Below, in pieces: positions 1 to 44,710 of a DNA stretch of 44,710 bases. Source of the DNA: a virus; the IMG/VR virus record IMGVR_UViG_3300042090_000282, positions 1-44,710 of that record, one strand, 5' to 3'. The position numbers and the translations under genes were made by a program. The first letter of the stretch is position 1. The number at the start of each line of letters is the position of its first letter. Under the pieces are notes generated by a model. It was not told the origin of the DNA. It did no database searches and saw nothing but the letters and a program-made list of their open reading frames with translations.

Positions 1-153
1 GCCCGAGCAGCCCGAGCAGCGCGAGCAGTCCGAGCAGTACGAGCAGCCCGAGCAGCCCGAGCAGCGCGAGCAGTACGAGCAGCCCGAGCAGCGCGAGCAG
101 TCCGAGCAGTACGAGCAGCCCGAGCAGCCCGAGCAGCGCGAGCAGTCCGAGCA
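1..153. repeat. 9-bp tandem repeat (CGAGCAG + 2 variable bases), left end
   Basis: Seventeen uninterrupted 9-bp units. Seven bases are invariant and the last two vary among CC, CG, TC and TA. Only the codon for the third residue of each triplet changes, so the array varies at protein level (Gly, Arg, Asp, Tyr) while Cys-Ser is fixed. There are no spacers and no palindromes, so this is a coding minisatellite and not a CRISPR. It is the same array as at 44526-44710. Confidence 0.97.
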
Positions 154-276
154 GTTAGTGCAATTTTCGCAGTCCTTCAAGCTATCGAGCGCAGCCTGCG
201 CCGCTTCCGTCGAGCCGAAGTATTCGACCGAGCAGCGATTGCCGTTCGAGTCGGTGAGCCAGGTAGTCTCGGTCAT
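1..276 (-). CDS. Cys-Ser-X triplet-repeat phage protein, N-terminal part (gene wraps the window ends)
   Basis: The frame starts at ATG 276-274 and runs off the left edge with no stop. Residues 1-40 form a compact domain (begins MTETTWLTDSNG, then RCSVEYFGS and an Ala/Leu helix). After the linker CENCTNC come 17 perfect triplets C-S-X with X = Asp, Arg, Gly or Tyr. The matching C-terminal part is the leftward frame 44169-44710, which begins with the same triplets and ends in a globular domain containing THCRAGWVVTLAG. From memory, uncultured-phage proteins combine exactly this N-terminal domain, a CSx tract and this C-terminal domain, so I read the two pieces as one gene of at least 271 residues. 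It lies 26 bp downstream of the DUF1364 gene in the early operon. Function is unknown. Cysteine at every third position suggests metal binding or a stacked-cysteine solenoid (inference). Confidence 0.85.
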   Translation of the reverse strand, partial: MTETTWLTDSNGNRCSVEYFGSTEAAQAALDSLKDCENCTNCSDCSRCSGCSGCSYCSDCSRCSGCSYCSRCSGCSGCSYCSDCSRCSGCSG

Positions 277-43545: not shown

Positions 43546-43810
43546 GCTCATCTCTCCATTCGCCGTCCCAGTCGTCGTTCGGCAAATCGAACCGCTGAAT
43601 GCCGAAGTATGTTTCGGCGCAGCCATCGCAAAAGCGCGCCTCTAGCATCGGCTCGGAGTCCTGTTTCCACATCCGCAACGCGATCGTATCTTCGGGGATC
43701 ATTGCCCCGCAGTACGAGCAGAGACACGTCGGATCGCCCTCGTAGGGTGAGGTCTTGGACCAAAGCACCTTGCTCCAATCGCCGGAAAACTTGAGGCCGT
43801 CACCGGTCAC
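43538..43810 (-). CDS. Zinc-binding hypothetical protein
   Basis: 90 residues from GTG 43810 (GTGA overlap). CLCSYCGAMIPEDTIALRMW and ARFCDGCAETYFG place Cys31, 34, 61 and 64 as a clear zinc-ribbon; a fifth Cys lies at 29. The tail is acidic (DLPNDDWDGEWRDEHG). The pattern CSYCG..IPE...LR.W......FC..C is common in phage early proteins of unknown role. The next gene begins within its last 8 bp. Confidence 0.65.
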   Translation of the reverse strand: MTGDGLKFSGDWSKVLWSKTSPYEGDPTCLCSYCGAMIPEDTIALRMWKQDSEPMLEARFCDGCAETYFGIQRFDLPNDDWDGEWRDEHG

Positions 43811-44103
43811 GTAGGCTCACCTCTCCGGTCCACCGCTGACCCCGGCTCGCGCAGCGCGGCAACACGGGCTAGGCACACGACGCACGGGCATCCCTCGGAT
43901 TCTGATATTTCCTCGTTCGCCCGCAGGCACGTCAAATCACACTCGTCTATTAGCTCCCAGATTGCTTTTTTCAACTCCGCAATCTTTGCCGCCTCCAACC
44001 TCTCGCATCGCGCTTGCAGGGCGTCGTAGTCGGAGGCTGGCACGCATTCGCGCATGTCATGAGCCAATCGGCCCACGGGTATCGCGTTAAATCGTTTCAC
44101 CAT
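43807..44103 (-). CDS. Coiled-coil protein with Cys motif
   Basis: 98 residues, ATG 44103, with AGGAG about ten bases upstream. YDALQARCERLEAAKIAELK and KKAIWELIDECDLTCLR form a helical coil with Cys55 and Cys59. GCPCVVCLARVAALREPG adds Cys72, 74 and 77, a potential zinc knuckle. Similar proteins with 'D...L......L' coils followed by Cys pairs are frequent beside restriction-alleviation or Ea-type early genes. Unknown function. Confidence 0.6.
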   Translation of the reverse strand: MVKRFNAIPVGRLAHDMRECVPASDYDALQARCERLEAAKIAELKKAIWELIDECDLTCLRANEEISESEGCPCVVCLARVAALREPGSAVDRRGEPT

Positions 44104-44121: not shown

Positions 44122-44172
44122 TTACGACTCGAACTCCGGCACGTAGGTCTGCCAGCGCTTGAATGCGTTCAC
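44122..44172 (-). CDS. Possible 16-residue microprotein
   Basis: GTG 44172 overlaps the stop of the Cys-triplet gene as GTGA and encodes MNAFKRWQTYVPEFES before a TAA. The exact coupling pattern matches its neighbours, but the product is tiny and could be chance. Confidence 0.2.
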   Translation of the reverse strand: MNAFKRWQTYVPEFES

Positions 44173-44710
44173 GGCGCCTCTCCGTGGCCCGCATATCCGC
44201 GCTCCGCCATCGCTTTCATGTCCGCGAGCGCTTCTTGATTGTCGGCAAAGAAGTTAGACATGCGCCAGGTCGGGTCGGATGCGCGGTATATCTGCATCGC
44301 CGCGAACGGCGTCGAGGTTACGGCTTCGAGCGCTTTGCCGGCCTCACCCGCGAGCGTGACCACCCACCCCGCGCGGCAGTGCGTCGTGCCGCAGTGCCAT
44401 AGGCTCATGTCGAGGCACCCCGGTTGACTCGCCGCCTCGTAGACGGCCTTGTGAATATCGGGGACGACAGGCACCTCGGGCATCTTCCAGGCTTTGCCGG
44501 GTTCAACCTCGTTTTTGTCTTTGCAGTACGAGCAGCCCGAGCAGCGCGAGCAGTCCGAGCAGCCCGAGCAGCGCGAGCAGTCCGAGCAGCCCGAGCAGCG
44601 CGAGCAGTCCGAGCAGCGCGAGCAGTCCGAGCAGCCCGAGCAGCCCGAGCAGTCCGAGCAGTACGAGCAGCGCGAGCAGTCCGAGCAGCCCGAGCAGCGC
44701 GAGCAGTCCG
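44169..44710 (-). CDS. Cys-Ser-X triplet-repeat phage protein, C-terminal part
   Basis: The frame enters from the right edge without a start and ends at TGA 44171-44169, 179 residues. It begins with 20 complete C-S-X triplets plus one partial, then the linker CKDKNEVEPGKAWKM. A globular domain follows: VPDIHKAVYEAASQPG, then HCGTTHCRAGWVVTLAGEAG, PFAAMQIYRAS and DNQEALADMKAMAE. The last region is a domain I recall at the C-terminus of phage CSx-repeat proteins; its N-terminal half is the frame 1-276 at the other window end. The globular domain has two cysteines (HCGTTHC) that may extend the metal or disulphide theme. A separate start at 44483 is possible but unnecessary. Confidence 0.85.
   Translation of the reverse strand, partial: DCSRCSGCSDCSRCSYCSDCSGCSGCSDCSRCSDCSRCSGCSDCSRCSGCSDCSRCSGCSYCKDKNEVEPGKAWKMPEVPVVPDIHKAVYEAASQPGCLDMSLWHCGTTHCRAGWVVTLAGEAGKALEAVTSTPFAAMQIYRASDPTWRMSNFFADNQEALADMKAMAERGYAGHGEAP
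44526..44710. repeat. 9-bp tandem repeat, right end
   Basis: Twenty complete 9-bp units plus 5 bases, the same CGAGCAG+NN unit as at 1-153. Read on the gene strand from the window edge, X runs mainly in the cycle Asp-Arg-Gly, with occasional doubled Gly and a Tyr. The last 30 bases of the window equal positions 3-32, which is consistent with the ends overlapping or with chance in so simple a repeat. Confidence 0.97.

Follow-up and report, generated by a model that had tools for sequence, protein, structure and literature searches.

A (Cys-Ser-X)n phage protein encoded at the two ends of a viral contig, with a tract predicted to form a thin beta-solenoid

The Tenebrio antifreeze protein is built on the consensus TCTxSxNCxxAx, each copy of which makes up one 12-residue coil with a disulphide between positions 2 and 8 (PMC8038014). 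C, S, C and A stand at every third residue of this consensus. Pentapeptide proteins (PF00805), with tandem A(D/N)LXX repeats, form a different solenoid, with five-residue sides, an Ala/Leu core and a 20-residue coil; among them, MfpA and Qnr act as DNA mimics (PMC8145042). Repeated Cys-Xaa-Xaa (CXX) units are also known in bacteriocins of the heterocycloanthracin/sonorensin type (PMC2674419), which are bacterial thiazole-type precursors with maturation operons. Two phage protein families, PHROG 15341 (an N-terminal cap, or N-cap, followed by a CXX tract) and PHROG 31265 (pentapeptide repeats followed by a C-terminal domain, or C-domain), are both labelled 'unknown function', and neither states a fold.

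The window analysed here is the whole of a 44,710-nucleotide stretch of viral DNA (positions 1 to 44,710 of IMG/VR record IMGVR_UViG_3300042090_000282). It carries at its two ends the pieces of a protein with a long tract of Cys-Ser-X (CSX) triplets. The protein matches PHROG 15341 over the N-cap and tract (E 2.8e-10, residues 7–90 of the N-terminal piece), as do 15 of 15 relatives, and PHROG 31265 over the C-domain only (E 9.5e-38); before position 147 the latter family matches pentapeptide proteins, and this pentapeptide part is absent from the window. The likeness to the insect cysteine-rich antifreeze protein (1EZG, IPR016133) consists of an inward residue at every third position, a Cys-rich core and a small beta-helix, as predicted for the phage tract, and 1EZG was among the top matches by sequence (E 0.15–0.54). 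However, the inward positions are C, S, C and A in the insect protein and all Cys in the phage tract, the phage repeat is CSX rather than TCTxSxNCxxAx, there is neither a TCT ice-binding face nor a visible secretion signal, and the N-cap and C-domain are unrelated to the insect protein. The likeness is probably convergent. In sister phage proteins, pentapeptide repeats take the position of the CSX tract ahead of the same C-domain, and their surface letters are similar (S/R then G/D, compared with D/G/R/Y in CSX), but their tract sequence is unrelated to CSX, and neither the window pieces nor the CXX relatives gave a match to PF00805 or to Pfam. The heterocycloanthracin/sonorensin precursors share the repeated Cys-Xaa-Xaa with the CSX tract but have no comparable C-terminal domain, and no relation to them was recognised.

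A gene interrupted at the ends of the window

All parts of the gene lie on the minus strand. The leftward frame 1–276 reads MTETTWLTDSNGNRCSVEYFGSTEAAQAALDSLKDCENCTN(CSX)17 and reaches the contig end without a stop. Its layout is MTETTWLTDSNGNRCSVEYFGSTEAAQAALDSLKD-CEN-CTN-(CSX)17, comprising a 35-residue N-cap (172–276), supported by 15 aligned relatives, AF2 and PHROG 15341, two leading CXX triplets (CEN CTN, 154–171) found in the same place in many relatives, and the first 17 triplets of the array (1–153). The leftward frame 44708–44169 reads D(CSX)20CKDK... and continues through a C-terminal domain to a stop. Here the array (44526–44710) consists of the last 5 nt of a split CSD triplet and 20 further triplets, with one CXX triplet (CKD) flanking it on this side. 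A linker that varies among relatives (CKDKNEVEPGKAWK, 44484–44525) leads to the C-domain (44172–44483), supported by relatives, AF2 and PHROG 31265; it has 104 residues and a WHC-x-TTHCRAGW motif, and its final residues are not conserved. The stop codon lies at 44169–44171. The X residues are seven G, four R, three D and three Y in the N-terminal piece, and six R, six G, six D and two Y in the C-terminal piece. Both fragments had been described in a first-pass annotation, whose total of 271 residues (92 + 179) and restriction of X to D, R, G and Y were confirmed.

The contig ends have no terminal overlap, and joining them directly (818 nt) puts the two pieces out of frame, ruling out the window as a closed circle. 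The IMG/VR class of the record is linear. At the break, the N-terminal piece finishes a whole codon (..TGC TCG GGC) and the C-terminal piece opens with CG GAC TGC. Because of these split codons, at least 4 nt (TGC T) must be missing, and the gene should therefore have 38 or more CSX triplets. The earlier count of at least 37 consecutive triplets described a real tract, with the qualification that the ends do not abut.

A C-domain scan of viral contigs yielded 196 relatives. The nearest (L003, 81% identity) has the N-cap, 35 triplets and the C-domain in a single ORF, and both halves of the window align, in the same order and orientation, to a single ORF in L003 and in L390. A second scan yielded 80 further phage loci, in 78 of which the tract and the C-domain share one ORF. 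The single-ORF locus was complete in 64 of these 78, with 10 to 59 triplets (median 29), and was cut at or near a contig edge in 14. Assemblies thus often break inside the CSX array, which explains the ends of the window and, more widely, why many phage contigs break at the CSX gene. We conclude from the aligned sequences that the window pieces are one gene across the contig ends, and that chance is excluded. The joined loci and the single ORF of L003 bear out the original proposal that one gene spans the two ends; the contrary case, in which the domains flanking CSX tracts would always be separate genes, is refuted by their union in 78 of 80 loci.

The 9-nt unit of the window array is nearly homogeneous, and all six frames are open across it, so that an open frame is no evidence of coding there. 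Both properties would suit a spurious frame, that is, a DNA-level repeat whose CSX reading had no selected meaning. Coding in the CSX frame of the window rests instead on the conserved flanks and on the relatives. The N- and C-domains are conserved in frame in dozens of phages, and divergent relatives hold Cys and register amid varied neighbours. Serine is encoded by TCN in most of the 78 tracts and by AGY in a few, the two never being mixed within one tract, and both Cys codons are present in 32 of the 78. Since Ser is recoded in this way between tracts, the CSX frame is taken as real and under selection at the protein level. The conserved flanking domains, the codon recoding and the register in relatives refute the spurious-frame reading. 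Period-9 scans at the DNA level also recovered many wrong-frame or unrelated arrays, which were removed by composition and by eye.

Across the 78 tracts, about 97% of triplets have D, G, R, Y or N at X. Cys is at times singly replaced by S, L, F, Y, R or G with the register kept, in tracts that had been selected as mostly Cys. Array length is not quantised, and both odd and even triplet numbers occur among the loci of the second scan. Divergent phage relatives likewise keep the Cys register, with S, R, T, I, K, N or V as the second residue of the triplet and mostly D, N, G or S as the last. Two loci with identical flanks (L037 and L038; 280/280 and 289/289 nt) nevertheless have 25 and 28 triplets, respectively, with X rearranged. 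This difference indicates rapid turnover of the array, although repeat counts in assemblies can be wrong.

Flanking domains and exchange of the solenoid

The N-cap is conserved in 15 aligned relatives, and in divergent phage relatives it follows the consensus W.D.N.N...[ST].E.A...S.[ST]L.[NDG]C. AF2 predicted a beta-hairpin followed by a helix, with block pLDDT of 68–80 in L003 and 88–95 in L320, a CXX relative. The window C-domain, of about 95 residues with the motif W-H-C..T.HCRAGW, was predicted to be all-helical in L003 (block pLDDT 65–91). All 22 aligned C-domains have the H, C, H and C, and we guess from the motif that these residues possibly form a Zn site. Searches of the C-domain against Pfam, PDB profiles and Foldseek gave no significant match; an RbfA-like PDB match (E 0.011) and one to NVEALA (E 0.05) were judged to be chance hits.

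PHROG 31265 was unusable as a probe of genomes, as it contains pentapeptide repeats, and an alignment of the C-domain was used instead. This domain was found in only one of 398 genomes of one bacterial phylum, and thus looks like a phage domain. Some CXX relatives are without any large C-domain, suggesting that the CXX rod may act alone.

In the first 80 loci, the window-type C-domain was preceded by a CSX tract in 37 and by pentapeptide repeats (PF00805) in 38. On a tree of the C-domain the two kinds fall largely into two clades, separated by a minimum of two changes; L003 adjoins the pentapeptide clade, and inside the CXX clade a pentapeptide protein from a plasmid sits on a long branch. Two changes indicate that solenoid exchange on this C-domain is real but rare, and frequent stalk swapping was rejected on the same count. 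A pentapeptide protein with the window C-domain is encoded on plasmid pA of Bordetella bronchiseptica (L519:1565-2794), a phage-like plasmid with YqaJ genes nearby.

Three relatives (L143, L190 and L124) have CXX tracts that lead into a second C-domain (IGSRN...CGCF, PHROG 20532). In named phages this C-domain follows YdcK (PF18836), Hexapep (PF00132) and pentapeptide solenoids. The YdcK and Hexapep proteins share with CXX proteins this C-domain, but their repeat, N-cap and C-domain are all unlike those of the window protein. Replacement before two different C-domains suggests that the slot between N-cap and C-domain holds either known beta-solenoids or CXX. PHROGs 15341, 31265 and 20532 and their relatives would thereby be united as proteins of N-cap, exchangeable solenoid and C-domain. 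The named carriers of the PHROG 20532 C-domain (L513–L518, L521, L522) are phages of Listeria, Bacillus, Ruminococcus, Paenibacillus, Bacteroides and Chryseobacterium, and some of their solenoid proteins (YdcK, Hexapep or pentapeptide) were deposited as acyltransferases.

The presence of the same C-domain on pentapeptide solenoids is what would favour a DNA mimic of pentapeptide type, inhibiting gyrase or DNA-binding host enzymes. A 12-residue coil would, however, be far thinner than the 20-residue pentapeptide coil or B-DNA, and D and R at X almost cancel out (mean charge −0.08 per triplet), which gives no DNA-like negative surface. This mimicry therefore seems very unlikely. The net charge of X was no closer to zero than in random draws, and no pairing of opposite charges by lag was detected in X.

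Predicted fold and chemistry of the tract

In 62 complete unique relatives, the residues at −3 and −6 before the first Cys were hydrophobic in 73–74%, as compared with 3–19% at −1, −2, −4 and −5. After the tract, positions +0 and +3 were hydrophobic in 56% and 47%, respectively, as compared with 13–26% at +1, +2, +4 and +5. The hydrophobic residues thus take the Cys register at both tract ends, indicating that Cys continues a hydrophobic core. An AF2 model of a relative with the same N-cap and a diverse CXX tract (L320:3806-4225) had a beta-bridge at every third residue over nearly the whole tract, the bridging residue being the one after each Cys. Tract pLDDT in this model was about 60–80; the best of five models scored 71 and the other four 52–59. 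In L003, the CSX protein, the tract was modelled without confident structure (pLDDT about 27). Foldseek of the L320 model returned the Tenebrio antifreeze protein first and then many parallel beta-helices, none of them significant.

The tract most probably forms a thin parallel beta-solenoid in which every three-residue side contributes one inward Cys, a predicted fold to which the hydrophobic register, the AF2 model of the paralogue and solenoid replacement lend moderate support. The first-pass annotation had offered three readings of the cysteine ladder (a thin beta-solenoid with a stacked Cys face, a metal or metal-cluster array, and a disulphide zipper), of which the beta-solenoid is the best supported. 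Its interpretation as a whole was partly upheld, for the single gene and, at moderate strength, for the beta-solenoid. The most likely geometry, for which we see an even chance, would be a four-sided coil of 12 residues as in the Tenebrio protein. Lag statistics on pooled divergent tracts peaked at four triplets (z 3.3 for position 3 and 3.6 for position 2), but multiples of four gave p 0.70 in a held-out independent set, so that 12 residues per coil is a hint only.

In such a solenoid, each CSX triplet would form one side, with Cys pointing inward into the core, X (D/G/R/Y/N) exposed at the turn, and Ser (or a beta-branched residue in relatives) forming the beta-bridge. The helix of the N-cap would start the solenoid, and Leu, Ala, Ile or Val would stand in for Cys at its ends. 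The cysteines would serve chiefly in core packing, as a thiol stack, and not as an obligatory metal array. If this is true, a solenoid with three residues on each side and Cys in all inward positions is a new, near-minimal design, one that phages use widely and that very fast turnover of repeats has shaped.

The same inward cysteines, at most four per 12-residue coil, might instead bind Zn, Cu or Fe-S, making the rod a metal or metal-cluster array that acts as a sink, a donor or an electron path. This is consistent with the near-complete retention of Cys at one position over 10–59 triplets, where other solenoids accept Ala, Val or Leu, with the lack of a visible secretion signal, as thiols should then be reduced and available, and with the invariant H, C, H and C of the C-domain. 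Single Cys replacements that keep the register, and lengths that are not quantised, nevertheless fit packing better than fixed clusters, and none of the 30 largest neighbour clusters was recognised as a metal-handling or Fe-S gene. We regard the metal array as a minority possibility. A cytosolic solenoid with an unbroken Cys stack of at least 10 layers and at most four Cys per layer, along which metal or thiol/redox chemistry would run in the manner of a nanowire, is quite improbable.

In a disulphide zipper, disulphides between or within coils, of the kind found in insect antifreeze proteins, would stabilise the rod and would form after lysis or in an oxidising compartment. The pairing of Cys 2 and 8 in each Tenebrio coil is a precedent, and one phage homologue was deposited as 'insect antifreeze protein' (IPR016133). 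Against this, the protein has no visible signal peptide and is encoded in the early region, the tract is without the TCT face, and triplet numbers are both odd and even. An obligatory disulphide ladder is made less likely by the occasional S or L in the Cys register together with the lack of a visible secretion signal, and we consider the zipper unlikely.

Genome context, possible role and cultured carriers

With its PF12236 connector and PF20911 capsid genes, the window is podovirus-like; the CSX gene sits in a leftward run with ERF, YqaJ, DUF1367 and YbcO genes. Its upstream neighbours, all on the minus strand and assigned by Pfam, are a YbcO-type nuclease (PF07102, 303–602), DUF1367 (PF07105, 925–1359), a YqaJ recombinase (PF09588, 1640–2290) and an ERF recombinase (PF04404, 2292–3071). 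A small gene without a Pfam match (43807–44103, minus strand) lies downstream in the same run. The rightward structural region between 24000 and 30000 contains very long, repetitive ORFs rich in Ser, Thr and Gly (1083 and 945 aa), possibly tail or surface-binding proteins.

No conserved partner gene was found around the 78 CSX loci, and no gene family was common to more than eight of them; the recurrent neighbours that could be recognised were recombination, replication and methylation genes. Among PADLOC defence families, only a weak SIR2 match (E 0.058) in one relative was obtained. Inspection by eye and a few profile scans of the neighbour clusters recognised no RiPP maturase (YcaO or radical SAM) as a recurrent neighbour; four loci have a Gp37/Gp68-like gene. 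This bears on the idea that the protein is a RiPP precursor, with Cys and Ser of the tract converted to thiazoles and oxazoles or cross-linked by radical SAM enzymes as supposed for HxsA. Cys-Xaa-Xaa bacteriocins do exist, and similar-looking loci (L203, L246 and L277) appeared in the genome scan. However, a conserved domain follows the CSX tract, the NCBIfam HxsA4 model (NF038313) reached 13.7 bits against a cut-off of 55, and TOMM models gave no match. The absence of a neighbouring maturase is not decisive, since the enzyme may be encoded at a distance or by the host. We consider a RiPP precursor extremely unlikely.

An early, portable and partnerless gene with a fast-changing surface would fit an accessory role in host interaction or counter-defence better than a part of the virion. 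The beta-solenoid would then serve as a rigid scaffold that evolves fast and either binds a host factor or sets the spacing of the head, and the head (WH(x)CxTTHCRAGW, perhaps Zn-binding) would be the conserved contact in host takeover or counter-defence. We tentatively suggest a cytosolic accessory protein whose rod and head serve host interaction or counter-defence. The explanation as a whole, an early-region phage gene for an N-cap, a (CSX)n beta-solenoid rod and a helical C-domain with an accessory role, stands in our judgement evenly balanced between right and wrong.

The first-pass annotation had stated that uncultured phages carry similar proteins, which the viral-contig relatives confirmed, and the observation now extends to two cultured phages. 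Flavobacterium phage FL-1 (L389/L524, KY421186.2, 26455–27271) encodes the N-cap, 36 CXX triplets and the C-domain, the last being split by an apparent one-base frameshift. Its GenBank annotation is wrong: APZ82901 corresponds to an Ala-Pro-Val ORF read in a different frame, and APZ82918 to the end of the C-domain. Vibrio phage 1.238.A encodes a 124-residue protein of N-cap and CXX tract without the C-domain (NVP1238A_68, L523:5001-5375), deposited under the insect antifreeze name noted above. Three annotations are thereby corrected ('insect antifreeze protein', the Ala-Pro-Val ORF and the split gene), and FL-1 and 1.238.A permit direct tests of structure, thiol state, metal and function.

Some genomes carry several CXX genes. 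One phage has five tandem CXX paralogues with the same N-cap (L320:2522-4494), and other contigs, among them IMGVR_UViG_3300029922_000042, have at least five CXX paralogue positions. CXX tracts were also seen in bacteria. In three mycobacterial proteins (L238, L247 and L281) a repeat rich in Gly, Ser, Ala and Val is followed by a CXX tract. A Patescibacteria protein (L319) has interrupted CXX repeats and a C-terminal motif of IFNK type, which resembles by eye a third phage C-domain, that of L125, L150 and L155.
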